Below are positions 1 through 19,224 of a stretch of DNA of 35,417 bases, piece by piece. Source of the DNA: a bacterium (candidate division B38) B3_B38. GTDB lineage: Bacteria; Acidobacteriota; B3-B38; Guanabaribacteriales; B3-B38. Below the pieces are notes generated by a model that searched no databases, was not told where the DNA came from, and was given only the letters and a program-made list of their open reading frames with translations. The stretch lies in assembly GCA_005223145.1 (NCBI GenBank), contig NJBL01000020.1, positions 1 through 35,417 of the forward strand. The letters run 5' to 3'. A program made the position numbers and the translations under genes. How positions within the stretch are numbered: the stretch's first letter is position 1; each line of letters opens with the position of its first letter.

Positions 1-2106
1 CAAGACTACGGGGTACGCTATATAAGGTCGCAGGTCTCCTCGGTTGGTCAGTCAGATACCTCCGACAGGCTGACCGTTCATTATTCCACCGAGGAGGGAC
101 CACCCAAGGATGGGGAGTTCGACCTGGTGGTCTTAGCGGGGGGTTTGCACCGACCAGAGGGCTCTTCCGAGCTGGCTGAGCTCCTGGGGATCGAGCTGAA
201 CAAATACGGCTTCTGCTCCACCATCAATTTCGACTCTGTGGAGACCGGGCATGGGGGCATCTTTGTCTGCGGTGCTTTCCAGGAGCCAAAGGATATACCC
301 GAGACCGTGACCCAAGCTTCCGCTGCTGCAGCCAAGGTCTCCACCCTTCTCCGGCCACCCCGACGAAAGCCGGAGGAAGAAGTGAGCTACCCTGCGGAAA
401 TCGACATCATCCAGCAAGCACCTCGCATCGGGGTCTTTGTATGTCGGTGTGGAACAAACATCGGTGATTTTGTCGATGTCCCCGCAGTGATTGAATACGC
501 CCAGACCCTCCCTTGTGTAGTCTATGCTGAAGAGAACCTCTATTCCTGCTCTCAGGATGCTCAGGAGAGGATGAAGGAGAAGATAAAGGAGCATAAGCTG
601 AACCGGGTAGTGGTTGCCTCTTGCACTCCCCGAACCCATCAGCCCCTCTTTCAGGAGATGCTGAGGCAAGCAGGGCTTAACAAATACCTCTTTGAGATGG
701 CTAATATCAGAGAGCAGTGCTCCTGGGTTCATATGAACCACCCCGAGGCGGCGACCCACAAAGCCAAAGACCTTATCCGGATGGCGGTCGCTCGCTCTCA
801 GATGCTTCAACCCCTGGTAGCGGTGCGGGCTGAGATCATCCCCAAAGGATTGGTAATCGGTGGAGGCTTGGCAGGGATGACCGCTGCCCTCAGCCTGGCA
901 GAGCAAGGCTACCAGGCTTATCTAATTGAAAAGGAGGCAGAGCTTGGAGGGAACTTCCGCCGGCTCAAATTCAGCCTCCCCTTAAAAGATGACCCGCAGA
1001 GCTATCTCCAATCCCTCATAGAAAAGGTGGAATCCAACGAATTGATTGAGGTCTATACCGAAGCGGAGATAAAAGAGGTGGCTGGATTTATTGGGAATTT
1101 CCAGACCACTGTCCTCCACAAGGGCAAGGACGTAAAGCTCGACCACGGGGCGATCATTGTAGCTACGGGAGGGGAGGAATTGAAACCGGCTGAGTATCTC
1201 TATGGCCAAGATGAGCGAGTAGTTACCGGTCAGGAGTTTGAAGAGCTATTAGCCAGGGGTGATGGCAGGTTAGGGGAGAGCAGGTCTATCGCTATTATCC
1301 TATGTGTCGGCTCCCGGGAGGAAGGGCGACCCTATTGCAGTCGGGTCTGCTGTGTTCAGGCTATTAAGACTGCCCTTAAGCTGAGGCGAGACTTCCCGGA
1401 TTTAAGAGTCTTTATCTTATATAAGGATATAATAACCTATGGTTTTAAAGAGGACTACTACCGCAGGGCAAGAGAAGAAGGAGTGGTGTTCCTGAGATAT
1501 GACGATGACCATAAGCCCTCCCTTCTCAAAGAGGGGGACAGGTTAAAGCTGACCCATCGGGTTCAAGTCCTGGGGGGCGAAGAGATAGTCCTCTATCCTG
1601 ATATGGTTGTTTTAAATGCCGCAATTATACCAGGGGATAACTCATCACTGGCAAAGATGCTCAAAGTTCCCTTGACCGGGGACGGCTTCTTTCTCGAAGC
1701 CCATATGAAACTTCGCCCGGTAGACTTTGCCACCGATGGAGTCTTCCTCTGCGGTCTGGCTCATTCTCCCAAGTCGGCGGAGGAGTCCATCACCCAGGCA
1801 CATGCCGCTGCTTCCAGGGCAGTTTCCCTCCTCTGCCAGACCACCATTGAAGCCCCTGCGGTGACTGCCGAGGTGGATGAGGAGCGGTGTCGCGCTTGTG
1901 GTAAGTGTGTGGAGGTCTGCGAATACAGCGCCCCGGAGCTGGTCGAGGTAGGGGAGGGGAGAAAGGCTGCCCGGATTAATCCCCTTCTCTGCAAGGGCTG
2001 CGGAGTCTGTCCGGTGCTCTGTCCCACCAGCGCTATAACTCTGAAGCACTTCACCAGCGGGCAGATTATCTCCATGATAGATGCTGCCCTGAAGGTAGCT
2101 ACTTAA
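1..2106 (+). CDS. HdrA-HdrA' fusion flavoprotein (5' end outside window)
   Basis: The frame is open from base 1, so the true start lies upstream and only the last 701 residues are seen. The first ~110 visible residues are the C-terminal end of an HdrA-type FAD domain (GIFVCGAFQEPKDI, then an Ala-rich helix). They run without a break into a complete second module. This has an HdrA N-terminal Cys domain (VFVCRCGTNIG, ASCTPRTH, REQCSW), a dinucleotide-binding FAD fold (GLVIGGGLAGMTAA), and a C-terminal pair of [4Fe-4S] motifs (CRACGKCVEVC and CKGCGVCPVLC). HdrA proteins carry the bifurcating flavin in Hdr complexes; that role is known for the family and inferred here. The next gene (MvhD) follows after about 16 bases, so this belongs to the same operon. 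The same two modules occur as two separate genes at 3674-6689. Confidence 0.9.
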   Translation, partial: QDYGVRYIRSQVSSVGQSDTSDRLTVHYSTEEGPPKDGEFDLVVLAGGLHRPEGSSELAELLGIELNKYGFCSTINFDSVETGHGGIFVCGAFQEPKDIPETVTQASAAAAKVSTLLRPPRRKPEEEVSYPAEIDIIQQAPRIGVFVCRCGTNIGDFVDVPAVIEYAQTLPCVVYAEENLYSCSQDAQERMKEKIKEHKLNRVVVASCTPRTHQPLFQEMLRQAGLNKYLFEMANIREQCSWVHMNHPEAATHKAKDLIRMAVARSQMLQPLVAVRAEIIPKGLVIGGGLAGMTAALSLAEQGYQAYLIEKEAELGGNFRRLKFSLPLKDDPQSYLQSLIEKVESNELIEVYTEAEIKEVAGFIGNFQTTVLHKGKDVKLDHGAIIVATGGEELKPAEYLYGQDERVVTGQEFEELLARGDGRLGESRSIAIILCVGSREEGRPYCSRVCCVQAIKTALKLRRDFPDLRVFILYKDIITYGFKEDYYRRAREEGVVFLRYDDDHKPSLLKEGDRLKLTHRVQVLGGEEIVLYPDMVVLNAAIIPGDNSSLAKMLKVPLTGDGFFLEAHMKLRPVDFATDGVFLCGLAHSPKSAEESITQAHAAASRAVSLLCQTTIEAPAVTAEVDEERCRACGKCVEVCEYSAPELVEVGEGRKAARINPLLCKGCGVCPVLCPTSAITLKHFTSGQIISMIDAALKVAT

Positions 2107-2122: not shown

Positions 2123-2536
2123 ATGCCCGAATTTGAGCCCCGCATAATCTGCTTTGCCTGCAACTGGTGCTCCTACCCGGGAGCAGACCTGGCGGGGGTG
2201 AGCAGGATTCAATATCCCCCCAACGCCCGCATAATAAGGACTATGTGCTCCGCCCGGGTCTCTCCAGTCTTTGTTCTGCGGGCTTTTCAGCGGGGGGCTG
2301 ATGGGGTGCTGGTGACCGGGTGTCATATTGGAGATTGTCATTACATCTCGGGCAACGAGAAGGCGGAAGAGAATATGAGGCACACCGCCGAACTGCTGGA
2401 CTTACTTGGCATCGGTAAGGAGAGGCTCCGGCTGGAATGGGTCTCGGCTGGCGAAGGGGGTAGATTTGCGGAGGTGATGACCTCCTTTGTGGAGCAGATA
2501 AAAAAACTGGGGAAGCTAAAGTTGAAGGAGATATGA
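2123..2536 (+). CDS. MvhD-like hydrogenase/Hdr iron-sulfur subunit (all-Cys copy)
   Basis: About 137 residues, a normal length for the MvhD/FrhD delta-subunit family. Family Cys motifs are visible: CFACNWCSYPGADLAG near the start, TMCSAR, and VTGCHIGDCHY around residue 60. MvhD carries a [2Fe-2S] cluster and passes electrons between an electron donor subunit and HdrA. I chose ATG 2123 because a TTAGG-like ribosome site sits 8 bases upstream; a GTG at 2114 is an in-frame alternative. The stop overlaps the next start (ATGA at 2533), which implies translational coupling to the HdrC-HdrB gene. A paralogue at 6740 carries selenocysteine at two of these Cys positions. Confidence 0.9.
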   Translation: MPEFEPRIICFACNWCSYPGADLAGVSRIQYPPNARIIRTMCSARVSPVFVLRAFQRGADGVLVTGCHIGDCHYISGNEKAEENMRHTAELLDLLGIGKERLRLEWVSAGEGGRFAEVMTSFVEQIKKLGKLKLKEI

Positions 2537-3657
2537 AGGTTTTTGAGAAGATAGTTCAACAGACAAAAGCTTATTATTGCATCGATTGCGGCATCTGCAC
2601 TGGAAGCTGCCCGGTTGCGCGGGTGAATCCCCGATTTTCTCCGCGACTAAATGTGGAGAAGTCCCTGCTGCAATTGGAAGGTGAGATAGTAGAGGACCGG
2701 GAGCTGTGGTCTTGTCTGACCTGCGGCACCTGCAGCCAGCGCTGCCCGGCATTGGTCGATTATCAAAGCTTTGTCCTCTCCTCACGCATTGAGGCTCGCA
2801 AAGCGGGACGGGAGGGGTCGCTCACCCATGACGGGGTGCTGAAGTTAATGATGGAATTGCAGACCTTCGCCTTCCCCCAGGCAAGAACTGGCTGGATACC
2901 CAAGGAGGTGAAAACCTCGGCAAAGGGTGAATACCTCTACTGGGTCGGCTGTCTGCCTCATTTTGATGTTATCTTCAAAGATTATGGGACCCATTCCCTG
3001 CAGACCGCTATCAACGCTTTGCGGATATTAAACCGCCTGGGGATAAAACCGGTGGTCAGCCCCGAGGAGCGGTGCTGCGGGCATGACCTTCTGTGGAATG
3101 GTGATATAGAGAGCTTCCGGAAGTTAGCCCGCTATAATATCGGAATGCTAAAAAAATATGGGGTATCCAAAGTTGTCTGCAGTTGTCCCGAGGGCTATCG
3201 CACTTTGAAGGTGGACTACCCCAACCTCGTCGGTGATACCGGGGTGGAGGTTATTCACATCTCCCAGCTCATAGCCCAGGGGATTAAGGAGGGAAAGATA
3301 TTCCTCAATCCCCTGGAAGAGAAAGTCACCTACCACGATCCCTGCCGTCTGGGGAGGCTTTCGGGAATCTATGAGGAGCCGCGCGAGGTCATCCGTCACA
3401 TCCCGGGTCTTCAATTGCTGGAGATGGAGAGAAACCGGGGTGATGCCATCTGTTGCGGCACCACCGGCTGGGTGAACTGCTCCTCCTATTCCAAAGAGAT
3501 TCAAACTGACAGGCTGAAGGAGGCTATCAGCACTGGCGCTCAAACCCTTATAACCGCCTGTCCCAAGTGCAAGATTCATTTCCAATGCGCCCTTATGAAC
3601 AGCGACTTATCCATAGAGATAAAGGATATGTTAGACCTAGTAGGGGAGGTCATCTGA
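2533..3657 (+). CDS. HdrC-HdrB fusion (HdrD-like (Fe-S) protein with two CCG domains)
   Basis: 374 residues. The N-terminal third is HdrC-like, with two [4Fe-4S] motifs (CIDCGICTGSCP near residue 16 and CLTCGTCSQRCP near residue 60). The rest is HdrB-like with two cysteine-rich CCG domains. The first has VGCLPHF, ERCCGHD and CSCPEG. The second has HDPCRLG, ICCGTTG and CPKCKIH, ending in the CxxC expected of the family. In Hdr enzymes these CCG domains hold noncubane clusters that reduce a disulfide; the substrate here is unknown. The first CCG domain has CxC rather than CxxC, so one cluster may be altered. It is coupled by a 4-base overlap to MvhD and sits 16 bases before the selenocysteine HdrA. 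Fused HdrCB proteins are known in HdrD- and GlpC-type families. Confidence 0.9.
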   Translation: MKVFEKIVQQTKAYYCIDCGICTGSCPVARVNPRFSPRLNVEKSLLQLEGEIVEDRELWSCLTCGTCSQRCPALVDYQSFVLSSRIEARKAGREGSLTHDGVLKLMMELQTFAFPQARTGWIPKEVKTSAKGEYLYWVGCLPHFDVIFKDYGTHSLQTAINALRILNRLGIKPVVSPEERCCGHDLLWNGDIESFRKLARYNIGMLKKYGVSKVVCSCPEGYRTLKVDYPNLVGDTGVEVIHISQLIAQGIKEGKIFLNPLEEKVTYHDPCRLGRLSGIYEEPREVIRHIPGLQLLEMERNRGDAICCGTTGWVNCSSYSKEIQTDRLKEAISTGAQTLITACPKCKIHFQCALMNSDLSIEIKDMLDLVGEVI

Positions 3658-3673
3658 CAAATAGGGAGAACCT

Positions 3674-4987
3674 ATGGGAAGCAAGGATGTTTTAGTCATC
3701 GGTGGGGGAATAGCCGGAATCCAGGCGGCTTTCGACCTGGCAGAGATGGGGGTTGCCGCCTATCTGCTGGAGAGAAAGCCGAGCATCGGCGGGGTTATGG
3801 CTCAGCTGGATAAGACCTTCCCCACCAACGACTGCGCTATCTGAATACTCAGCCCCAAGATGCTGGATGCCGGTCGGCATCCCAACATCAAGATTCTCGC
3901 CTATAGCGAGGTACAGGGCTTGGAGGGCAAGGCGGGGGACTTTACAGTCCAATACCTGAAGAAAGCCCGCTATATAAAGGAGGAAGTGTGCACCGCCTGC
4001 GGAGCCTGCGCTGAAAAATGCCCCATAAAGGCGGACAATGACTTTGAGATGGGACTGAAAAAGAGGAAGGCCATTTACATTTACTTCCCCCAGGGGATAC
4101 CGGCAGTGTATACCATCGACCCCGAGCATTGCCCCATGATTCTGAAGGGTAAATGCGGGCTCTGTGCTAAGTTATGTCAGGCCGGAGCCATCGATTATGA
4201 GCAGAAGGACGAGAAGAAGACCCTCCATGTGGGGGCTGTCATAGTAGCCACAGGTGTGACGCAATTCGACCCCAGTGTGGTGACCGAATACGGCTATGGA
4301 AGGATAAAGAATGTCATTACTGGTCTGGAGTATGAGAGGCTCATCAGCGCCTCAGGTCCCACCAAAGGACACCTTTACCGCCCCTCCGATGAGAAGTTGG
4401 CGAAGAGGGTTGCCTACATCCAGTGTGTCGGTTCGCGCAGCCTGAAATACAAAGATTACTGCTCCAGTGTCTGCTGCATGTATGCCATTAAGGATGCTAT
4501 GTTAGCCAGAGAACACGATGAAGAGGCTGAATCATATATCTTTTACAGCGATTTTCGGGTTATGGGTAAAAGGTATCAGCAGTACCGCTTGCGGGGAGCA
4601 GAAGATTATGGGATAAAATACATCAGAGGAAGGGTAGCTGAGATTATCGAGGATGCGGAAGGGAATCCCGTGCTCTGGTATGAGGACACCCGCACCCGCC
4701 AGGTGAAATCGCTCACAGTAGACATGGTTGTTCTGTGCTCTGCCGCTGTTCCCAGTAAGGGAGTTGAGCAGCTGGCTGAGGTTCTGGGAATTGAGCTGAC
4801 TCCTAATCGCTTCGTAAAGACCGACCCCTTCCATCCTACCGATACCACCGTGCCGGGGATTTTTGTCTGTGGCTTCTGCCAGAACCCCAAGGATATAGCC
4901 GAATCAGTGAGCCAAGCAAGTGGAGCTGCCTCCAGGGCTGCAGGGTTATTGGGAATTACCTCTTCGGGCAAGAGGACTGTGGCTTGA
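3674..4987 (+). CDS. hdrA: Selenocysteine-containing HdrA (module I)
   Basis: Reading the in-frame TGA at 3842 as selenocysteine gives one 437-residue protein. It opens with an FAD fold ([14 protein letters not shown]), followed by FPTNDCAIU with Sec57, then ILSPKM. A [4Fe-4S] motif follows (C106[10 protein letters not shown]), then a second Cys motif near residues 155-170 (CGLCAKLC), the HdrA signature CVGSR...YCSSVCC, and the terminal [13 protein letters not shown]. In family members with Cys the same place reads CxxC followed by I/L-L-S/A-P-K, so Sec replaces a conserved cluster-region Cys. Sec-containing HdrA is known in Methanococcales and some deltaproteobacteria. Start ATG 3674 has GGGAG 5 bases upstream. 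The N-terminal Cys domain and C-terminal ferredoxin of full HdrA are absent here and are supplied by the next gene (16 bases on). A plain ORF call gives only a false 375-residue protein from 3860. Confidence 0.93.
3842..3844 (+). other. UGA selenocysteine codon (Sec57 of HdrA)
   Basis: The codon is in frame with open reading and strong HdrA homology on both sides (NDCAI-U-ILSPK). A Cys is expected at this place in the family. A hairpin with a GGUC loop follows 27 bases later. Confidence 0.92.
3859..3889 (+). promoter_or_regulatory. Bacterial SECIS element for HdrA Sec57
   Basis: Within the coding sequence, GGATGCC (3865-3871) pairs perfectly with GGCATCC (3876-3882) around the loop GGTC. GATG (3859-3862) and CATC (3886-3889) can pair below it across small internal loops. 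The loop opens with GG, as SelB-bound loops do, and GGUC matches the core of the well-known E. coli fdhF loop. The loop begins after 27 bases from the UGA, inside the accepted bacterial range of roughly 16-37. Confidence 0.87.
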
Positions 4988-5003: not shown

Positions 5004-6689
5004 ATGAACGAGAAGAGAGGATTGCCGAGCGTAGGGGTCTTTGTCTGCAGGTGCGGAGTGAACATCGGCGGCTTCCTCGATACTCCCGCACTGGTGGAAT
5101 ATGCGAAGACCCTCCCTGGGGTGGTCTTCGCCAAGGAGAACCTCTACACCTGCTCCGAGAGCGGCACAGCGGAGATAAAAAAAGCCATCCAGGAGAACGA
5201 CATTCAGCGAGTGGTGGTGGCTGCGTGCACACCCCTCACCCATGAGCCCCTCTTCAGGGCAATCTGTCAGGAGGCAGGTGTCAATCCCTACCTATTTGAG
5301 TTTGTCAACATCAGGGAGCACTGCTCCTGGGCGCATATGAAAGAGGGGGAGGAGGCAACTAAGAAGGCAAAAGACCTCATCCGAATGGGAGTTGCTCGAG
5401 CTATAGAGCTGGAACCACTGGAGTCGATTGAAGCTGAAGTGGAACCCTCGGCTCTGGTCATCGGCGGAGGCATATCAGGGCTGGTGGCAGCTGCCTCGCT
5501 GGCTGAGCGGGGATTCCGCGTCGCTCTGGTAGAGCGGGAGGGGGAATTGGGAGGGATGCTCAGGCATCTTTATAAATTATATCCCTCCGATGTACCGGCA
5601 GAGGAAGTTCTTAAGCCCTGGAGGGATAAGGTAATTGATAACCCCCTGGTTGACTTATATCTGGAATCAGAGGTCATCAGTGTCAAAGGGTATATAGGAA
5701 ATTACGATGTGGTCATCAAGTCCCCTGAGAAGGAGATTCCCCTTAAAGCCGGGGTGATCATCCTGGCTACCGGCGCTCAGCTATGGGAGCCTCCGGAGGG
5801 GCTTTACGGATATAATAAAAAGGATGTCATTACCCAGTTAGAGCTGGAGAGTCTTTTGATGAAAGGGAAGCTAAAAGCGGATAAAGTGGTTATGATTCAG
5901 TGTGTGGGAGCGATGAGTCCCGAGAGGAGCTACTGTTCCCGCATCTGCTGTGTTACCGCCATCAAGAACGCCATTCTGATAAAGGAGCTCAACACCGCCG
6001 CCTCCGTGCACATTCTCTACCGGCAGATGCAGGCTTATGGTGATGAATACGAAAGCTATCTACGAAGGGCTAAGGAGTTAGGGGTGAGGTTTGTCAATTT
6101 CTCCCCTGAGCAGTCTCCAGTGGTGGAAAACCAGCAGGTTAAGGTCTATCATCAACTGCTGGGACGAGAGCTAACCCTGCCCTTCGACCTTCTGGTGCTC
6201 TCCACCCCTCTGGTCACCCAGCGGGGGAGCGAGGCTCTGGCCACTCTTCTCAAGGTCCCCATCGACCAGGACGGCTTCTTTCTGGAAGCTCATATCAAGC
6301 TCCGACCCCTCGACTTTTCCACCGATGGGATATATCTCTGCGGCTGTGCCCACTACCCCGCCGATGTGGGGGAAGCGGTGAGTCAGGCATTGGGGGCGGC
6401 AAGTCGGGCTTCCATTCACCTTACCCGGGGGTATATCAAAGTGGAGCCGATTGTTTCCTCCCTGATAGATGAGAAACTCTGCCAGGGATGCGGTTTGTGT
6501 GCGGGGCTCTGCCCCTATGGGGCAATTGAGATGGTCGACACTTCCGAAGGGAAAAAAGCGAGAATTATATCGGTAGCCTGCAAAGGGTGCGGTATATGTG
6601 CGGCGAGCTGCTATTGCCAGGCTATCAGACTAAGTCATTACACCAGGGAGCAATTGGAGGCTCAGATCAGAGCCTTGCTCTCGGCATAA
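5004..6689 (+). CDS. HdrA' (module II): N-terminal Cys domain, FAD domain and 2x[4Fe-4S]
   Basis: 561 residues. Residues ~10-130 are the HdrA N-terminal domain (VFVCRCGVNIG, LYTCSES, AACTPLTHEP, REHCSWAH). The FAD fold starts near 150 (LVIGGGISGLVAAASLAERG). The CVGAMSPERSYCSRICC signature follows. Two C-terminal [4Fe-4S] motifs lie at about 493 (CQGCGLCAGLCP) and 526 (CKGCGICAASC). The internal ferredoxin insertion of module I is missing, so this protein and the selenoprotein just upstream look complementary, probably forming one HdrA-like unit. The gene is closely similar in plan to the second half of the 1-2106 gene. ATG 5004 has AGAGG 7 bases upstream. Predicted role: flavin and cluster relay in an Hdr complex (inference). 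Confidence 0.92.
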   Translation: MNEKRGLPSVGVFVCRCGVNIGGFLDTPALVEYAKTLPGVVFAKENLYTCSESGTAEIKKAIQENDIQRVVVAACTPLTHEPLFRAICQEAGVNPYLFEFVNIREHCSWAHMKEGEEATKKAKDLIRMGVARAIELEPLESIEAEVEPSALVIGGGISGLVAAASLAERGFRVALVEREGELGGMLRHLYKLYPSDVPAEEVLKPWRDKVIDNPLVDLYLESEVISVKGYIGNYDVVIKSPEKEIPLKAGVIILATGAQLWEPPEGLYGYNKKDVITQLELESLLMKGKLKADKVVMIQCVGAMSPERSYCSRICCVTAIKNAILIKELNTAASVHILYRQMQAYGDEYESYLRRAKELGVRFVNFSPEQSPVVENQQVKVYHQLLGRELTLPFDLLVLSTPLVTQRGSEALATLLKVPIDQDGFFLEAHIKLRPLDFSTDGIYLCGCAHYPADVGEAVSQALGAASRASIHLTRGYIKVEPIVSSLIDEKLCQGCGLCAGLCPYGAIEMVDTSEGKKARIISVACKGCGICAASCYCQAIRLSHYTREQLEAQIRALLSA

Positions 6690-6739
6690 TAGAAGATAAA
6701 TGGTTCATATAAACCTCAACTCACAAATGGCAAGGAGCA

Positions 6740-7534
6740 ATGAGCAATTTCCAACCCAAAATTTTAGCCTTTTGTTGCAACTGGTGAGCCTATGCGGCAG
6801 CCGATTTAGCCGGCGTGAGCCGCTTTCAGTATCCGCCGGACATCCGCCTTATCAGGCTGATGTGCCTGGGGAGGCTCGACCCACCCTTCATCCTCGAGGC
6901 TTTCGCCAACGGGGCGGATGGGATCTTCACCGGCGGCTGAAAGTTTGGCGAATGCCACTATTCGACGGGCAACTTTCAGGCTGAAAGTAAAGTAATACTG
7001 TTAAGAAAGATACTTGAGACTATAGGTCTCAACCCGCAGAGGCTTGTCATTGAGCAGATGTCGGCAGCCGAAGGGGGGAAGTTTGTGGAGCTGGTCACCC
7101 ACTTTAGTCAGACCATCAGAGAGCTTGGTCCCCTCAAGAAGGAGGTTGACCCCGAGAAGCTGAAGACCAAGCTCCAGGCAGCCAAAAATGCGGTGGAAGG
7201 GAAGAAGATGCGGTGGGTGGTTGCCAAGCGGGTTGAGTTTATGACCAACGGCAACCTCTACGGCGAGGTCTTCACCCAGCAGGAGCTCAACCGGCTTTTT
7301 GAAGAGGTGGTGCTTGACGAAATGGCTATACAGGAGATTTTGCTCCTCACCAGGGAGCAGCCTCTCTCCGTAAGAGAGCTCGCTGAGAAGACAGGCTTAG
7401 CTCCCTCGGTGGTACTACGCCGGCTCACCGATATGAAGCGGATGGAATTGATGAAAGTGGAAAAGGTAGATGAGCGCACCCCTCTCTGGAAGGCGGTGGA
7501 AGAAGGAGAAAAAGGCAATGAATCCTCAGGATAA
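6740..7534 (+). CDS. MvhD-like subunit with two selenocysteines and a C-terminal winged-helix domain
   Basis: Two in-frame TGAs (6785 and 6938) interrupt what is otherwise a clear MvhD: AFCCNWU-AYAAADLAGVSRF, LMCLGR, then GGU-KFGECHY, then the usual helical end with EQMSAAEGGKF. Each TGA falls where the all-Cys paralogue at 2123 has Cys (NWC; TGC). Read through, the protein has 264 residues with Sec16 and Sec67. MvhD is usually ~140 residues. Here ~120 extra residues end in a winged-helix-like segment (about 190-264: IQEILLLTREQPLSVRELAEKT, then PSVVLRRLTDMKR). ATG 6740 is the only usual start after the in-frame stop at 6710; AAGGAG lies just 2 bases upstream, a tight spacing. The end overlaps the next gene by 17 bases. 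Selenocysteine MvhD/VhuD relatives are known in methanococci; two Sec plus wHTH is unusual. Confidence 0.9.
6785..6787 (+). other. UGA selenocysteine codon (Sec16 of MvhD paralogue)
   Basis: In frame in CCNW-U-AY. The paralogue at 2123 has Cys in NWCSY. Homology continues on both sides. Confidence 0.88.
6811..6822 (+). promoter_or_regulatory. Candidate SECIS for Sec16
   Basis: CGGC (6811-6814) and GCCG (6819-6822) close a GTGA loop whose first G is 28 bases after the UGA, leaving 27 bases between. That matches the spacing seen for the HdrA element. The stem is only 4 bp with weak extension, and GCGGC (6794) can compete for the 3' arm, so this is less certain. Confidence 0.55.
6938..6940 (+). 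other. UGA selenocysteine codon (Sec67 of MvhD paralogue)
   Basis: In frame in TGG-U-KFGECHY, where the paralogue has TGC-HIGDCHY. The reading frame and homology continue to 7534. Confidence 0.9.
6938..6988 (+). promoter_or_regulatory. Candidate SECIS for Sec67 with two competing hairpins
   Basis: ACTTTCA (6972-6978) pairs with TGAAAGT (6982-6988) around a GGC loop, a SECIS-like hairpin with GG at the apex 38 bases after the UGA. The same arm, as AACTTTCA (6971-6978), also pairs perfectly with TGAAAGTT (6938-6945), which begins with the UGA itself. GCC (6954) and GGC (6968) can extend that longer fold. The two folds exclude each other. Confidence 0.5.
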
Positions 7535-9215
7535 GCAGAGTGCAGTGCTGGTTGTGGGAGCTGGGGTCGCCGGGATGCAAGCCGCCCTCGACTTAGCTGA
7601 TATGGGTATGAAGGTCTATCTGCTTGATAGAGCGCCAGTCATAGGGGGTGCAGTTGCCCAGCTGGAGCGCACCTTACCCGAAGGGCAATCCTCTTCGTGC
7701 GAGGTGGGAGCCATGTTTGATGCTATCAGCCATCATCCCAACATTGAGCTTATTACCAATGCCGATTTGCAGGGCATAAGCGGGGAGCAGGGAAGTTTTG
7801 AGATTGCCATCAAAAAGAGAGCTTTCAGGGTCACTGAGAAGTGCGACGACTGTGGGGCTTGTTATCAGGTTTGTCCCGTTAAACCGTATAATACTTTTAA
7901 TGAGGGGCTGACCCTCCGCTGCGCTATCGACCATCAGAACTACTCCTTCCTTCCATTGATATACAACATAGAGAAAGAGACTCCCGCCTGTCAGGAGACC
8001 TGTCCGGTGCATATTGATATCCGCCGATATGTGGGGCTCATTGCCGAGGGGAAGTTCTTAGAAGCGTTGCAAGTAATCAGGGAGAGGAACCCTCTCCCAT
8101 CTATCTGCGGTCGGGTCTGCCACCATCCCTGCGAGGGCATGTGCAACCGGGGGCAGCAAGATGAGCCCATCGCTATTGAGAAGCTGAAAAGATTTGCGGT
8201 TGATTACGAGATGAACCTGCGTCGACAGGGACTGTTACCTAAGCTCTCCGCTCCGAAGAAGCCGACCAAGGAGAAGGTGGCTATAGTGGGCGCCGGACCA
8301 GCGGGACTGACCTGCGGGCACGACCTGGCGAAATTGGGATACGAGATCACCATATTCGAGAAGGAGTCGGTCCCCGGCGGGATGCTCTACCTGTGTATCC
8401 CCGAATACCGACTCCCACGAGATGTCATAGAGTATGATGTTGCTTTCATAAGGGATTTAGGGGTGGACATCAGGCTCGGCACTCCGATAGGGAAAGAGTT
8501 AACCTTGGATGACCTCCGAAAACAGGGACATAAAGCCATCTTTCTGGGTATCGGGGCTCACAAGGGGCTGAAGCTGCGCGTCCCTGGAGAAGACGAGTTT
8601 GAGGGGTTCATCGACTGCATAGAGTTTCTGAAGCGGGTGAACCTGGGTGACAAGAGTAAGCCGGGCAAGCGGGTAATCGTCATTGGCGGGGGCAACTCCG
8701 CTGTTGATTCTGCCAGAGTAGCCCTCAGATTAGGTTGTGATGAGGTTTACATCCTCTATCGAAGGTCGAGGAAAGAGATGCCGGCCAATGAATGGGAGGT
8801 GGAGGAGGCAGAGCATGAAGGAGTGCAGATTCACTATCTTGCTGCCCCGGTAAAAATCTTAGGGAAGAATGGTCGAGTGACAGGGATGGAGTGCACAAAG
8901 ATGAAGCTGGGTAAGCTCGATGCCAGCGGGCGAAGAAGACCCATCCCAATCAAGGGTTCGGAGTTTACCATTGAAGCAGATGTCATAATCCCCGCTATCA
9001 GTCAGCAGCCCGATATATCATTCCTCTCAGAGGTTCATGGTCTGGAGATAAGTCGATGGGACTCCTTTGTAATAGATGAAAGGACAATGCAGACCAATCT
9101 TCCCGATGTCTACGCCGGAGGGGATGCAGTGACCGGTCCGGCTACCGTAATTGAGGCTATTGCTGCCGGGCATCGTGCTGCCTCAGGTATTGACCGCTAC
9201 CTGCGGGCAAGGTGA
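7518..9215 (+). CDS. HdrA module I front half with inserted GltD/NfnB-like NAD(P)H flavoprotein
   Basis: 565 residues. Residues 1-150 match the start of module I HdrA: FAD motif VLVVGAGVAGMQAA, then a Cys in the Sec position (GQSSSC60), then the first insert cluster CDDCGACYQVC at 109. From ~155 it becomes GltD-like: CQETCPVHIDI, then CGRVCHHPCEGMCNRG, a second FAD site (VAIVGAGPAGLTCG, ~254) and an NAD(P)H site (VIVIGGGNSAVDSA, ~385). It ends with the family motif DVYAGGDAVTGPATVIEAI. GltD/NfnB proteins oxidise or reduce NAD(P)H, so this links the complex to pyridine nucleotides (inference). ATG 7518 has AGGAG 8 bases upstream; the longer frame from 7470 has none. The gene ends TGA TAG, and the next gene continues in the same frame after one more codon. 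Confidence 0.9.
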   Translation: MNPQDKQSAVLVVGAGVAGMQAALDLADMGMKVYLLDRAPVIGGAVAQLERTLPEGQSSSCEVGAMFDAISHHPNIELITNADLQGISGEQGSFEIAIKKRAFRVTEKCDDCGACYQVCPVKPYNTFNEGLTLRCAIDHQNYSFLPLIYNIEKETPACQETCPVHIDIRRYVGLIAEGKFLEALQVIRERNPLPSICGRVCHHPCEGMCNRGQQDEPIAIEKLKRFAVDYEMNLRRQGLLPKLSAPKKPTKEKVAIVGAGPAGLTCGHDLAKLGYEITIFEKESVPGGMLYLCIPEYRLPRDVIEYDVAFIRDLGVDIRLGTPIGKELTLDDLRKQGHKAIFLGIGAHKGLKLRVPGEDEFEGFIDCIEFLKRVNLGDKSKPGKRVIVIGGGNSAVDSARVALRLGCDEVYILYRRSRKEMPANEWEVEEAEHEGVQIHYLAAPVKILGKNGRVTGMECTKMKLGKLDASGRRRPIPIKGSEFTIEADVIIPAISQQPDISFLSEVHGLEISRWDSFVIDERTMQTNLPDVYAGGDAVTGPATVIEAIAAGHRAASGIDRYLRAR

Positions 9216-9221
9216 TAGGGA

Positions 9222-11642
9222 ATGAAAAAGAGGAAGTTTATCACAGAATTTCCGGATATTCCCTCAAAGCGCCCTCCTGAGCCATCTCTCCCCCTGGAGG
9301 ATAGGAAGGGAAATTTCAAGGAGGTAGAGTTAGGTTACAGCGAGGAGCAGGCGATAGCCGAAGCCCGGCGCTGCCTGAGCTGTCGTCGGTGCATCGGGTG
9401 CGGACTCTGTCTGGCAGAATGCCCGCTGGAGGCCATAGTTTACGACCAAAAGGACGAGGCAATCAAGCTAAAGGTCGGCTCTGTAATCTTAGCCCCCGGC
9501 TTCGATGAGTTTGATGCCAACCTTCAGGAGCAGTTCGGGTATAGCCAATATCCGAATGTCATCACCAGCATTGAGCTGGAGAGGATTCTCAGCCCTAATG
9601 GTCCCTATGGGGGATTATTGCTCCGTCCCTCAGATGGAGAGATACCTAAGAGGATAGCATTCATCCAGTGTGTTGGCTCCCGCGAGGAGTTTATCGGGGC
9701 GAATTTCTGCTCTTCGGTCTGCTGCAATCATATGATCAAGCAGACCATATCCGCCCATCAGAAGGTGCCGGATATCCTCACCAGCGTATTTTTCAGAGAC
9801 ATCCGTCCTCTGGGGAAGGGATACGAGGATTATTACCTTCAGCTCATGGACCAACCCGAAGTAAAGTTTATCAACAGTATTCCCAAGGTAGTCAAGGAGG
9901 AACCTTCCACCCGGAACCTTGTAGTGGAGTGGGAGAAAGGGTCGGAAAAGGAGAGCGAGGAGTTCGACCTGGTAGTCCTGTCGGTGGGGCTGTGGGCTCC
10001 TCAAGGGTCTCGCCGATTGGGGAGGCTCGCCGGGATTCAACTAAATAAATACAACTTCTGCCACACCACCCCCTTCTCGCCCCTTACCAGCAGCAAGCCG
10101 GGGATTTTCGTCGCCGGGGCGTTCAGCTCCCCAAAGGATATTTCGCAATCATTAGCCCAGGCGAGTGGTGCTGCATCAAAATCAGCGAGTATTCTGGGCG
10201 ATAAGCGCGAGCTTCCCAAAGCCGCTCCCAGAGGGGAGAAGGAGATTAAGGCTTCAAACAAGGAGAATAGAATCGGGGTGTTTATCTGCCCCTATATCGG
10301 AGTGTCAGGGGAGGAGAAGAAAGGGGAAGGTTGGCTCGAATATGCCCGGAGCCTGTCCGGGGTGTTAGGGGCGGAAGTTCTTCAGTTCCCCTGCTGGAGT
10401 GTCGGACGCGAGGAGATAAAGAAGACGATACAGGAGAAAGGGTTAAACTGGGTAGTAGTGGTCGGGTGTCAGCCCTCTATCAGCCTTCCCATTTTCCAAA
10501 GGTCGGTAGAAGAAGCAGGGCTCAGCCGTCAGCGGCTCATCATGGAATCGGCATTTAAGGGTGCGGCTGAGGATGAAGAGATAAAAAGGGCGATCGCCAA
10601 GGCGGTAGAAAGAGCGGGAGAAGCGACGGAGGAGCCTGTTTCGGAGAAGATTGTTCCTGTGGGGCTGGTGATAGGGGGAGGGATAAGCGGTCTGACCGCT
10701 GCGCTGGATATGGCGGCTAACGGATTCCAGGTACATCTGGTGGAGAAGGGGAGCCAGCTGGGAGGCGGGCTTCTTTCCTCTTATTACACCCTGGAGGGCG
10801 AGGATGTTCAGGAGAAGGTGAAATCGCTGGTTGAGGAGGTGGAGAGAAACGAGCGGATACGCATATATACCGAAGCCACGGTGCAAAAAATTGAAGGTAG
10901 GGAAGGGAACTTCCTTACCGAGTTAACGCATAAGGGTAGCCCGGTTAAGATAGAACATGGGGTGTGCATCATCGCTACCGGGGCTGAGGAGTATGAACCC
11001 CGGGAGTATCTCTACGGAGAGCAATCCAGGGTAATGACGCAGAAAGAACTTGAGGGGATGCTGGCGAAGGGTGAGCCGTTGAAGGGGAAGGTAGCAATGA
11101 TTCAGTGCGTGGGGTCGCGGAATGAAGAGCATCCCTATTGCAGCCGATTCTGCTGCGGCGAAGCCTTAAAAAATGCCCTGAAGATAAAGGAGGCGCACCC
11201 AGAGAGCGAGGTCTATATTCTCCATAAAGATATCAGGGTCTATGGCTTTGAGGAGGATTTCTTCACCGATACCGTTGACAAAGGGGTTCATTTCCTCAGA
11301 CACCAGGGAGACCTCAAGGTGGTTAATAGCAAGGGCTTACAGGTGGAGTTTACCGAGGCGGTTAATGGGGAGCGAGTCACCCTCTCTGTGGATAACATAG
11401 TGCTGAGCACCGGAGTCGTCCCTCCCCAGAGCAATAAAGCTCTGGCAGATATGATAGGAGTCGATCTGGACAAGGACGGCTTTTTCAAAGAAGTCCATCC
11501 TAAATTCAGACCCCTGGAGCTTTCCCGAGAAGGGTTTTTTGTCTGCGGTTTAGCCCATTCACCCCAGACCATCTCCGAGGCTATATCCCAGGGGAGCGGT
11601 GCGGCGGGTAGGGCTTGCCGTATCCTTGTTAAGGCTTTATAA
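9222..11642 (+). CDS. HdrA module I rear half fused to degenerate module II
   Basis: 806 residues. It opens with the tail typical of GltD-like proteins (GYSEEQAIAEARRCLSC) and a ferredoxin motif (CIGCGLCLAECP, ~57). The second half of module I HdrA follows (FIQCVGSREEF, CSSVCC, IFVAGAFSSPKDI to ~335). A second HdrA unit comes next with FAD motif GLVIGGGISGLTAA near 485 and CVGSRNEEHPYCSRFCC. In this second unit the N-terminal Cys domain is eroded: the usual CxCG reads CPYI, ASCTP reads VGCQP, and REQCSW is lost. The C-terminal pair of [4Fe-4S] motifs found in its two relatives is absent. It lies in the same reading frame as the 7518 gene, separated by TGA TAG GGA. It is the last gene of the Hdr operon. 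FAD binding seems intact; cluster content is reduced. Confidence 0.9.
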   Translation: MKKRKFITEFPDIPSKRPPEPSLPLEDRKGNFKEVELGYSEEQAIAEARRCLSCRRCIGCGLCLAECPLEAIVYDQKDEAIKLKVGSVILAPGFDEFDANLQEQFGYSQYPNVITSIELERILSPNGPYGGLLLRPSDGEIPKRIAFIQCVGSREEFIGANFCSSVCCNHMIKQTISAHQKVPDILTSVFFRDIRPLGKGYEDYYLQLMDQPEVKFINSIPKVVKEEPSTRNLVVEWEKGSEKESEEFDLVVLSVGLWAPQGSRRLGRLAGIQLNKYNFCHTTPFSPLTSSKPGIFVAGAFSSPKDISQSLAQASGAASKSASILGDKRELPKAAPRGEKEIKASNKENRIGVFICPYIGVSGEEKKGEGWLEYARSLSGVLGAEVLQFPCWSVGREEIKKTIQEKGLNWVVVVGCQPSISLPIFQRSVEEAGLSRQRLIMESAFKGAAEDEEIKRAIAKAVERAGEATEEPVSEKIVPVGLVIGGGISGLTAALDMAANGFQVHLVEKGSQLGGGLLSSYYTLEGEDVQEKVKSLVEEVERNERIRIYTEATVQKIEGREGNFLTELTHKGSPVKIEHGVCIIATGAEEYEPREYLYGEQSRVMTQKELEGMLAKGEPLKGKVAMIQCVGSRNEEHPYCSRFCCGEALKNALKIKEAHPESEVYILHKDIRVYGFEEDFFTDTVDKGVHFLRHQGDLKVVNSKGLQVEFTEAVNGERVTLSVDNIVLSTGVVPPQSNKALADMIGVDLDKDGFFKEVHPKFRPLELSREGFFVCGLAHSPQTISEAISQGSGAAGRACRILVKAL

Positions 11643-13110: not shown

Positions 13111-13148
13111 CCCCTTTGCCAGGGGTTGAAGAGGGGATATATTCCCTC
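13111..13148. terminator. Possible bidirectional terminator between convergent genes
   Basis: Two small hairpins fill the gap: CCCCT/AGGGG around TTGCC (13111-13125) and GAGGG/CCCTC around GATATATT (13131-13148). There is no strong T run on either side, so this is tentative. Confidence 0.3.
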
Positions 13149-14262
13149 AGAGGGATGGGGGAATATCGATCGCCTCCTTCAGCTGGCTCACTCCGCCGCT
13201 GATGTTGTCCTTGACGATTATCTCTAAAAGGTGAGAACCAGGTCTACCCATCAGGCTCACCTGGTAGTGATATTCTTCTTCTATTTTCTCCTTCAGTTGG
13301 TCGGGGGTCAGGCGCAGCACTAAAGTGTCGGTCTTCTGGTCGATAATCTCACCTTCCTGGTCTGTGAGTTTTTCCTGAAGGGTGAGCTGTACCTGCAGCC
13401 GGTCCCCCTCCTTGTACCAGGCGAGATCGCGGTATTTAAACTTAATAGTGAGAAGAAGCTCAACCTTTTGTTCAGCCAGGGTGATGTAATCTGCCTGCCA
13501 CTGAAAGGGGATTTGCTGTGAGGGTAGCGGAGGAATGGGGGGAGGAGAGGAGAGGGTGGGGCTGAGTATCTGGTCGTAGGTTAGTTTCTCGTTGAAAATA
13601 GCTTTCTTGTTGGCATCTTCCAGGGCGGGACGGAACTCAGATAGTATCTTTTCAGACCTAAGTCTGTAGCGGGGAGAAAGTCTCTCACCTGTAAAAGAGC
13701 TGTTTAGAAGATAGTATTCGCCGGTACCGAAGATATTGGCGAATATCAGGGGTTCGAAGGGTGATATATATATGGAGGGGCTCTTAGCGTAGTACCAATA
13801 TATAACCAGTTGAATCACGCCATAAAGATCTTGGTATCGCATTTCCACCCGGTCGGGAGGTCCGAAGACGATCCATATCTCCCCTCGGGCAGTTCTCCAT
13901 GCGTCCTCGCCAACGCGCCCAAAGTTGACTTTGGCGTAGTCAGCCCGGCGATAGAATTCCTCCCGAAATTCGTTGATTCCTGTCGCTGGATTATAATCCC
14001 GGCGTGCCCAGAATATTCTGACGAACTGGATTTTATCTTCCAGGGTCTTGAGCTTTCTTAATATCGACTCTTCCTCGGGGGTCATTATTAACTTAAAAGG
14101 ACTCTCAAACCAATGGCGGAGTTCTTTTCCAATTTCCTCTACAGAAAGGAGCTCACTCTTCTCCTTTTCCAACTGGCAGATGGAACTGATAGGGAAGAAG
14201 AGGAGTCCTGCCAACAATGCAAGCATTAAGAGGTAATACTTTTTATGTGTCGATGAAATCAT
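13147..14262 (-). CDS. Exported GWxTD-domain protein
   Basis: 371 residues with an N-terminal signal peptide (positive start, then LLMLALLAGLLFFPISS, cleavage likely after SSIC or nearby). A GWxTD-type domain follows: FWARRDYNPATGINEFREEF, a Tyr/Arg-rich stretch, then AWRTARGEIWIVFGPPD. Here the eponymous GWxTD reads DAWRTA, a divergent form. A short Pro-rich linker (SSPPPIPPLP, ~230) leads to a beta-rich C-terminal region. The GWxTD family is common in Acidobacteria, Aminicenantes and related phyla, and its function is unknown. AGGAG lies 8 bases before ATG at 14262. Convergent with the malic enzyme gene. A second, longer GWxTD gene lies at 17451-19055. Confidence 0.85.
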   Translation of the reverse strand: MISSTHKKYYLLMLALLAGLLFFPISSICQLEKEKSELLSVEEIGKELRHWFESPFKLIMTPEEESILRKLKTLEDKIQFVRIFWARRDYNPATGINEFREEFYRRADYAKVNFGRVGEDAWRTARGEIWIVFGPPDRVEMRYQDLYGVIQLVIYWYYAKSPSIYISPFEPLIFANIFGTGEYYLLNSSFTGERLSPRYRLRSEKILSEFRPALEDANKKAIFNEKLTYDQILSPTLSSPPPIPPLPSQQIPFQWQADYITLAEQKVELLLTIKFKYRDLAWYKEGDRLQVQLTLQEKLTDQEGEIIDQKTDTLVLRLTPDQLKEKIEEEYHYQVSLMGRPGSHLLEIIVKDNISGGVSQLKEAIDIPPSL

Positions 14263-17450: not shown

Positions 17451-19055
17451 TTATCGGAGTTCGAAGCTTATATTTTGGCTAGTCCTCTGACTGGAGACCA
17501 GGTCGATTGCTCTGACTCGTAAAGTATAGCTTCCTGGCGTAAAGCCATCCAATTTGAAAGTAGTTAAGAAAGCCCTGGTGGGCAGGGGTGTGGGAGGAGG
17601 GTATCGGGTTGCTACCCTTCTGTAAATCATGGTTCTTTTATAAAAAAGATATTCGATGGCGAGACGGTTTTTGCCGGTGCTGGGATCCAGAGAGAGATTG
17701 TAGATGTAATAAAACAGAGATAATTTATCCTCAGGGCGAAAGTTTCTTCGCACATTGGGGACAATCTTGATATTTTCAAAGAGATAGGGGAGGAGAGTTC
17801 TCGATATAGGGACCATTGAGGAAGGAAGGATTTGCACCCGATTGCTTAAAATCAGACTGCTGATGTCCAGCTTATCATTACCGTAATGGGGAACGGTGAG
17901 CTCTTCTTGATAGTTATACCAGCTGGCGGATAGAGTATCAATAATATATAGCTCCAATAAGTAGGTGGCGGGGAGAGGCATAAAGCATAGCTGAAAGGTG
18001 GCCTTATCCCGGGAGATTTTATTGAATGTCTCATCTCCCAGCGAGATGGAGATGCGGTTGGCTGCCATCAAGGTCTGTGTACTCCCTTTCCTTGTCAGAG
18101 AGGCAACCACATCGAAGAGAGCCTCCTTCTTGCTCTCCCCCCTTTCATGAAGAAGTTCCTCAAGGGGGAGGTTTATAGTTATAGGCATCCTGACCCGATT
18201 TCCCATGGCACGGAAAAAATTGGTCTCTATCATAGAAGAAGAAAGCGGGAGTGCGGAAGAAGGGAGTAAACTTCGCCTGTAATCAGTTTCGGTGAGGGGT
18301 TTCAGACGGGCAAACTCCTGGATGGCAGCGGGGTCCTGGAGACTACTGTCTCCTTCCAGGTAAAGGGCGTCTATAAGGGGAACCCAGGGAGGGTAAGCGA
18401 GGGTCTCCAGGGTATAAATCGATTTGAAATGCTCCACCATTAGCTCCGGATTTTCGACCAGCAGTCCAGGGAATTTAAAATCCTCAATGTCTTTGCTAAG
18501 CTCTTTTAAATTGGTGGCTAAGACATAGCTTCTTGTGTTGTCAAGGTCGACAAATCGGATTTCGAAGCTCCGGGTCATCCTGCTGGAATCTTCCACCTGA
18601 TAAATCCAGATTTCGATGGGGTAGCCTCCTTCTCCTGAGGGGATCTGCTCGATTTCATCAGGGGTGCCATAAAGTATATATATCATTCCCCGATCGGTGC
18701 CCATCCCTGCCCGCAGGGAAGTGGAGAAGTATTTGTTAACAAATTCAACTCTATTCAGGTATTCCCTTTGAAATTCATTCACTCTTGTGCGAGGGTTAGG
18801 GTCACGCTTCCTCCAGAAGTTATTTATGAATCGCTCCCGTTCGTCATTGGTGGGCAGTTTCAGAAAGGCTTCCCTTTCTTCCGAAGTGATGATATAGCGT
18901 ACTGTTCCATGGAGCCACTTCTGATATTTCTCGGAGAGTTTTTGGGGAAAGGTGCTTACCGCGAGGCTAAAAAAGATTCCTCCCAGACAGATTAATCCAA
19001 TTGTCCTCGTTCTTCTGCATACAACGAAATCCAGCAATTTTCTATAAAACCACAT
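17451..19055 (-). CDS. Membrane-anchored GWxTD-domain protein
   Basis: 534 residues from ATG 19055; a TTG two codons earlier (19061) is the limit of the frame. The N-terminus has a single hydrophobic anchor or signal segment (IGLICLGGIFFSLAVSTF). The GWxTD domain follows, with FWRKRDPNPRTRVNEFQREYL near residue 85 and GMGTDRGMIYILYGTPDEIEQ near 120. A large beta-rich C-terminal part follows, ending in an Ig-like strand pattern (FTPGSYTLRVRAIDLVSS). It is about 160 residues longer than the GWxTD protein at 13147-14262 and closer to the family consensus. No strong ribosome site is visible; TACAAT on the minus strand at 19070-19065 would give almost no leader. Divergent from the ABC permease genes. 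The function of GWxTD proteins is not known. Confidence 0.85.
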   Translation of the reverse strand: MWFYRKLLDFVVCRRTRTIGLICLGGIFFSLAVSTFPQKLSEKYQKWLHGTVRYIITSEEREAFLKLPTNDERERFINNFWRKRDPNPRTRVNEFQREYLNRVEFVNKYFSTSLRAGMGTDRGMIYILYGTPDEIEQIPSGEGGYPIEIWIYQVEDSSRMTRSFEIRFVDLDNTRSYVLATNLKELSKDIEDFKFPGLLVENPELMVEHFKSIYTLETLAYPPWVPLIDALYLEGDSSLQDPAAIQEFARLKPLTETDYRRSLLPSSALPLSSSMIETNFFRAMGNRVRMPITINLPLEELLHERGESKKEALFDVVASLTRKGSTQTLMAANRISISLGDETFNKISRDKATFQLCFMPLPATYLLELYIIDTLSASWYNYQEELTVPHYGNDKLDISSLILSNRVQILPSSMVPISRTLLPYLFENIKIVPNVRRNFRPEDKLSLFYYIYNLSLDPSTGKNRLAIEYLFYKRTMIYRRVATRYPPPTPLPTRAFLTTFKLDGFTPGSYTLRVRAIDLVSSQRTSQNISFELR

Positions 19056-19224
19056 CTTCAATTAATTGTATCACACCTTTTTTTACAAATATATAGGTGT
19101 TCAAGAAATGTATTCTGTAAGATATACTACATATCAGAAGACAAAGCTCGTTTTTCTTTATGAGCGCTAAGAGTTTAGTTGTAAAGGGAATAGTGCAATA
19201 ATCTGTATTGAGGGACAAAAGAGC

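Follow-up and report, generated by a model that had tools for sequence, protein, structure and literature searches.

In the Methanococcales, VhuD is a bare FlpD subunit of a hydrogenase/formate dehydrogenase complex, is not known to carry a winged helix and is made by the archaeal selenocysteine (Sec) system with a 3' SECIS. Two UGA codons have been reported within the single vhuD gene of Methanococcus maripaludis (PMC9622424, Fig. S5 legend), and a 2026 review lists two Sec and the motif CxxU for the MvhD/VhuD family (PMC13188914, Table 1) and also refers to archaeal FrhD/VhuD with multiple Sec (PMC13188914). Sec-containing MvhD is already known in bacteria (PMC2702500), and HdrL is found next to MvhD in Desulfobacterium autotrophicum (PMC2702500). 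In solved complexes, MvhD holds one [2Fe-2S] cluster and relays to HdrA the electrons of a donor module (PMC5861303, PMC12350162, PMC6019823).

The window analyzed here is the whole 35,417-nucleotide stretch of contig NJBL01000020.1 from the bacterium B3_B38. With TGA read as an amino acid, positions 6740-7534 of the forward strand form one 264-residue frame containing exactly two UGAs. The preliminary description had given the coordinates and the two-UGA frame correctly, and had claimed that ORF calling misses the gene. Under table 11 there indeed remain a 94-residue ORF in another frame (6700-6984) and a 158-residue fragment (7058-7534). The two other species of the genus likewise keep the 94-residue ORF open, but its frame is not the one that carries the homology, and its openness probably follows from the conserved real frame that it overlaps. 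Both UGAs had further been placed at Cys positions of the all-Cys paralogue upstream (2114/2123), and Cys is found there at both places. The evidence argues for a bacterial selenoprotein with Sec16 and Sec67 in an FlpD/MvhD iron-sulfur domain that is fused to an ArsR-like winged helix; we put the probability of this reading, with the electron-transfer role proposed below included, at roughly 85%. Two UGA-encoded Sec in an FlpD/MvhD-type protein are upheld by Cys/Sec alternation at exactly these columns, by conservation in the genus, by the presence of selA, selB and selD, and by the tRNA-Sec of a congener. The earlier name, MvhD subunit, fits the FlpD/MvhD domain but not the protein as a whole, which is not a bare MvhD because a winged helix is fused at its C-terminus. 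The features of the locus and of the protein are collected in the table.

Table. Features of the flpD-wHTH locus (nucleotide positions in the window) and of its predicted product (residues).
Feature	Position	Strand	Evidence or remark
hdrA paralogue, C-terminal part	127..2106	+	
all-Cys MvhD paralogue without winged helix	2114..2536	+	
hdrCB fusion (4Fe-4S plus CCG domain)	2533..3657	+	
hdrA N-terminal part, predicted Sec at UGA 3842 (NDCAI-U)	3674..4987	+	
hdrA SECIS, GGATGCC-GGTC-GGCATCC, 7 bp	3865..3882	+	loop at +31, 27 nt after the UGA; compensatory changes across phyla
hdrA C-terminal part (FAD and 4Fe-4S domains)	5004..6689	+	
flpD-wHTH, predicted selenoprotein gene	6740..7534	+	translation, Pfam, AlphaFold, Foldseek
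UGA codon 16, predicted Sec, CxxU motif (CCNW-U)	6785..6787	+	column 16: Cys 112 frames, UGA 23
candidate SECIS hairpin for UGA 6785, CGGC-GTGA-GCCG	6811..6822	+	weak, 4 bp; loop +31
UGA codon 67, predicted Sec, GG-U motif (FTGG-U)	6938..6940	+	column 67: Cys 112 frames, UGA 29
candidate SECIS region for UGA 6938	6943..6988	+	hairpins 6949-6964 (loop +18) and 6972-6988 (loop +42)
hdrL N-terminal part: HdrA-type Rossmann plus GltD-like NAD(P)H-binding module	7518..9215	+	Fer4_20, Pyr_redox_2; synteny
hdrL C-terminal part / HdrA-like	9222..11642	+	
FlpD domain	residues 8-130		PF02662, 170 bits (cut-off 22.3), 2e-50
helical linker	residues 138-169		
winged helix	residues about 180-252		HTH_24 6e-6, HTH_5

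The order hdrCB-hdrA(Sec)-hdrA C-part-flpD-wHTH-hdrL is common to the window and Desulfobacterota, and in the window the start of hdrL overlaps flpD by 17 bases. The Sec-HdrA that had been noted in the same cluster is encoded two genes upstream of flpD. By analogy with MvhD, the FlpD-wHTH protein would bind a [2Fe-2S] cluster through some of its five conserved Cys/Sec positions. Judging from gene order, it would take electrons from HdrL, the NAD(P)H-linked product of the next gene, and hand them to the FAD of the upstream-encoded Sec-HdrA. Bifurcation at that FAD would then serve two acceptors, ferredoxin and HdrCB. A role as electron carrier linking HdrA with NAD(P)H-linked HdrL is most likely, and the tuned cluster chemistry suggested in the preliminary description is plausible. 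Farther along the window, two genes on the reverse strand (13147-14262 and 17451-19061) appear by eye to encode GWxTD-type secreted proteins of Acidobacteriota.

The AlphaFold model of the window protein had a pLDDT of 90.4, and in Foldseek searches with this predicted model the FlpD half matched MvhD (5odc_D; rmsd 1.0 A, E 1e-15), while the tail matched ArsR-type regulators, among them ZitR, SmtB and HlyU. Within an alignment of 26 members, winged-helix profile matches were seen for HTH_5 in 16 and for HTH_24 in 12. The fusion of FlpD with a winged helix also occurs in Desulfobacterota, in other Acidobacteriota-like relatives of the same phylum and in archaea, there joined to an all-Cys FlpD; going by these sequences, the FlpD-wHTH fusion is a family of its own. 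One member comes from G003, a genome of the same order and a sister genus, in which there was no selA match and no selB over the cut-off. In its orthologue (L066, G003:C45, 6751-7515) none of the five Cys remains and the CxxC segment is gone, but the winged helix is retained and the gene still precedes hdrL and a malic enzyme gene. Because this Cys-less orthologue retains the helix and its position before hdrL, the comparison indicates that the winged-helix tail has a job independent of the redox centre. Since the helix stays linked to hdrL where the Cys are lost, it most likely serves HdrL as a docking or dimerisation element.

The winged helix is ArsR-like by both profile and fold, as would be expected if the protein were mainly a redox-sensing transcription factor, with DNA binding by the helix under the control of the Sec/[2Fe-2S] site. 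We consider this unlikely: the gene is strictly linked to the Hdr cluster, and in G003 the winged helix seems to work without a redox centre, since the orthologue there is Cys-less and still keeps both the helix and the hdrL neighbour. Slightly more doubtful is the proposal that the winged helix binds DNA (or RNA) and that the redox state of the Sec/[2Fe-2S] site directly controls the expression of its own operon. If true, the protein would be a fused electron carrier and regulator of an electron-bifurcating complex, with selenium making it a sensor.

The assignment of the two UGAs to Sec is carried by the family-wide pattern. A set of 144 FlpD-like frames, drawn from the window's genus and phylum and from a named genome collection, was compiled with UGA read as a residue anywhere. 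Among 18,316 aligned codons these held 52 UGAs, of which 23 fell in column 16 and 29 in column 67, leaving the rest of the 130 columns free of UGA; the frames are related, and the counts thus not independent. The Cys/Sec alignment proposed in the preliminary description therefore came out as it had anticipated, every in-frame UGA within the domain falling in column 16 or 67. Apart from UGA, column 16 contained Cys (112 frames), Asp (4), Ser (2) and Ile (1), and column 67 contained Cys (112) and a single Val, in the degenerate G003 protein. The five conserved FlpD Cys positions are all Cys or Sec in the window protein (C13, U16, C42, U67 and C72). Columns 42, 67 and 72 were Cys or Sec everywhere except in G003, and column 13 was Cys in 141/142. 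Positions 13, 42, 67 and 72 may thus be the stricter set and 16 an exchangeable position, because 16 accepts Ser, Asp and Ile while the others stay Cys or Sec.

On a tree built without columns 16 and 67, three changes were needed for Sec16 and seven for Sec67, and therefore both Cys/Sec exchanges recurred. The genus of the window falls inside a Sec16 clade (97% SH-aLRT, 15-row set), and Sec16 combined with Cys67 is found in the Desulfobacterota FlpD-wHTH and in five relatives from the window's phylum. The tree indicates that Sec16 is inherited from the common ancestor of the fusion clade. Sec67 was most likely gained later, in the window's genus, since the tree nests that genus within the Sec16 clade. 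The sequence of events in the fusion clade would then be Sec16 first and Sec67 second; elsewhere Sec67 arose repeatedly. Because Sec67 arose both in this clade and repeatedly elsewhere, the same Cys positions appear to attract Sec again and again. Other arrangements were seen outside the fusion family. A deltaproteobacterial MAG encodes an independent two-UGA FlpD without a winged helix (L128, 7815-8348; CTW-U and GG-U), which sits in a cluster that also encodes Sec-HdrA and an MvhD with one Sec. The window's own genome has a second Sec-MvhD (L061, G000:C25, 9252-9731; ILVAG-U), which is short, has Sec67 only and lies beside a large hdrA. Among plasmids, only one FlpD was found, and it was distant and short.

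Sec-HdrA offers a reference for SECIS elements in this genus. Several of its HdrA paralogues have Sec in NDC(A/S)I-U or MDCSI-U (window 3842, L059 4563, L067 3463), and the Sec-HdrA paralogues carry a well-conserved, covarying SECIS hairpin. Across 30 Sec-HdrA contexts, 94% of the SECIS pairs form, and C-G, T-A and T-G exchange at one pair. Both SECIS elements of the window's flpD gene are weak and are candidates only. After codon 16, the loop position of the 6811-6822 hairpin matches that of the hdrA SECIS and of a Desulfobacterota hairpin (CTGGA-GTT-TCCAG), and a codon-16 hairpin with its loop at +31 was complete in 8/13 Sec versus 1/92 Cys homologues. When all 39 bases 3' of codon 16 were folded, no surplus structure was seen in the Sec homologues; only the local hairpin at its fixed place differs. 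After codon 67, a 6-bp hairpin was complete in 21/28 Sec versus 0/86 Cys homologues, and Sec homologues also had the more stable local hairpins (energy, p about 8e-12, the sequences being related). The window's genus is without this hairpin common to other Sec67 homologues and has two other hairpins instead.

That no canonical hairpin follows UGA 6938 at the usual spacing in this genus could mean that only UGA 16 is efficiently decoded as Sec, UGA 67 being poorly decoded and the product partly truncated, as in a selenium-dependent switch. This is improbable, however, as Sec at column 67 recurs in 29 frames, two alternative hairpins are present, and the DNA just 3' of UGA 6938 is nearly unchanged between species, with one difference between the window and congener G002 in the first 51 bases from this UGA. 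Decoding of both codons as Sec remains the preferred reading.

The Sec machinery of the window's genome was recovered in large part. Matches over the cut-offs were obtained for selA (576 bits), selB (326 bits, in a 651-residue frame) and selD (344 bits), and SelD itself has a UGA where its Sec usually stands (GSG-U-ASK). Of the four sel genes that the preliminary description had proposed to look for, selA, selB and selD were therefore present, and the genome is not devoid of Sec machinery, which that description had named as refuting. No selC turned up, however, in the 93%-complete assembly to which the window belongs. The best selC-like match of that genome (C63, 47.9 bits) proved to be a tRNA-Leu and was discarded. 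In the genus, G002 has a tRNA-Sec (71.9 bits, anticodon UCA), and G001 has the first 36 bases of selC, cut at a contig end. The genes that flank selC in these two congeners were sought in the window's assembly (G000) and were missing as well, and the selC gap therefore looks like incompleteness. In G002, the tRNA-Sec lies beside an integrase-like ORF (L152, G002:C154, 2981-3744), and a 42-base copy of the 5' part of tRNA-Sec adjoins a large ORF resembling a radical SAM gene (L153, G002:C140, 1724-1765), as if selC of this congener served as an integration site.

Insertion of another residue at UGA, whether Cys by a suppressor tRNA or Trp or Gly through a changed code, would agree with the absence of selC from the window's assembly and with the Cys found at these places in homologues. 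It is nonetheless very improbable. Homology of hdrCB, hdrA and hdrL stops at their UGA terminators, so that UGA is a normal stop elsewhere; selA, selB and selD are present; the UGAs of HdrA and SelD lie at known Sec positions; and the UCA-anticodon tRNA of G002 is a tRNA-Sec. A changed code in particular was rejected on the grounds of the UGA stops at which neighbour-gene homology ends and of the restriction of the family's UGAs to Cys columns. The bacterial SelA/B/D system of this genome is thus predicted to insert Sec at UGA 6785 and UGA 6938.

Both UGAs are kept in the two other species of the genus. The G002 protein is 83% identical to that of the window and has both. In G001 (Candidatus Aminicenantes bacterium 8_1_Oct_SF_Bin20), one contig covers residues 1-103 with both UGAs and a second begins at residue 56, with identities to the window of 95-97% (residues 1-103) and 89% (residues 56-260). 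Other residues or frameshifts in close relatives, which had been named in advance as what would speak against Sec, were not seen; only Cys or Sec occurs at the two codons, without frameshifts. The NG86 dN/dS values between the window and G002 were 0.05/0.38 before UGA 16, 0.06/0.37 between the UGAs and 0.10/0.46 after UGA 67, a ratio of about 0.14-0.21 throughout, and all three stretches of the gene are under purifying selection. A broken gene or an assembly error, with the UGAs as genuine stops in a decaying gene, would account for a frame interrupted twice under table 11, but this least probable reading was rejected on the grounds of the same two UGAs in three species' assemblies without a frameshift, of dN/dS of this order on both sides of the UGAs, and of the confinement of the UGAs to Cys columns.

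The preliminary description had invoked known Sec-MvhD and VhuD proteins; Sec-MvhD is indeed known in bacteria (PMC2702500), and the two-Sec state as such is already known in methanogens (PMC9622424, PMC13188914). No paper on selenoproteins of Aminicenantes and no description of a winged-helix FlpD family was found in the literature. As far as our searches reach, what is new is the winged-helix fusion as a Sec family, the addition of Sec67 in Aminicenantes and the Cys-less sister. The locus provides a bacterial two-Sec FlpD outside methanogens, and the family provides a natural series of one protein in CC, UC, UU and Cys-less states, largely within a single gene cluster. Such a series would allow the influence of Sec close to a [2Fe-2S] cluster to be tested. 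Standard gene calling would fragment the Sec-containing genes of this family.

Compared with the described systems, the window protein shares with VhuD of M. maripaludis the FlpD family, two UGAs and an operon with Sec-HdrA, and one of its UGAs stands in a CxxU motif, as in the two-Sec VhuD of Methanococcales. VhuD of Methanococcales, however, is a short subunit (about 130-140 residues) without a winged helix, whereas the window protein has 264 residues and a winged helix. MvhD of Methanothermococcus thermolithotrophicus (5ODC chain D), on which the FlpD half superposes, is 51% identical, all-Cys in the deposited sequence and likewise without a winged helix. The Sec-MvhD of Desulfobacterium autotrophicum and of other Desulfobacterota and Dehalococcoidia is, like the window protein, a bacterial FlpD with UGA-encoded Sec whose gene adjoins hdrA or hdrL (PMC2702500); unlike it, most of the short bacterial homologues collected here lack a winged helix and have a single Sec, which lies at column 67. 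The Desulfobacterota FlpD-wHTH proteins (e.g. Desulfoferrobacter suflitae, L079) share the domain order, the cluster and Sec16 at 44-54% identity, but they have Cys at residue 67, where the window protein has a predicted Sec.
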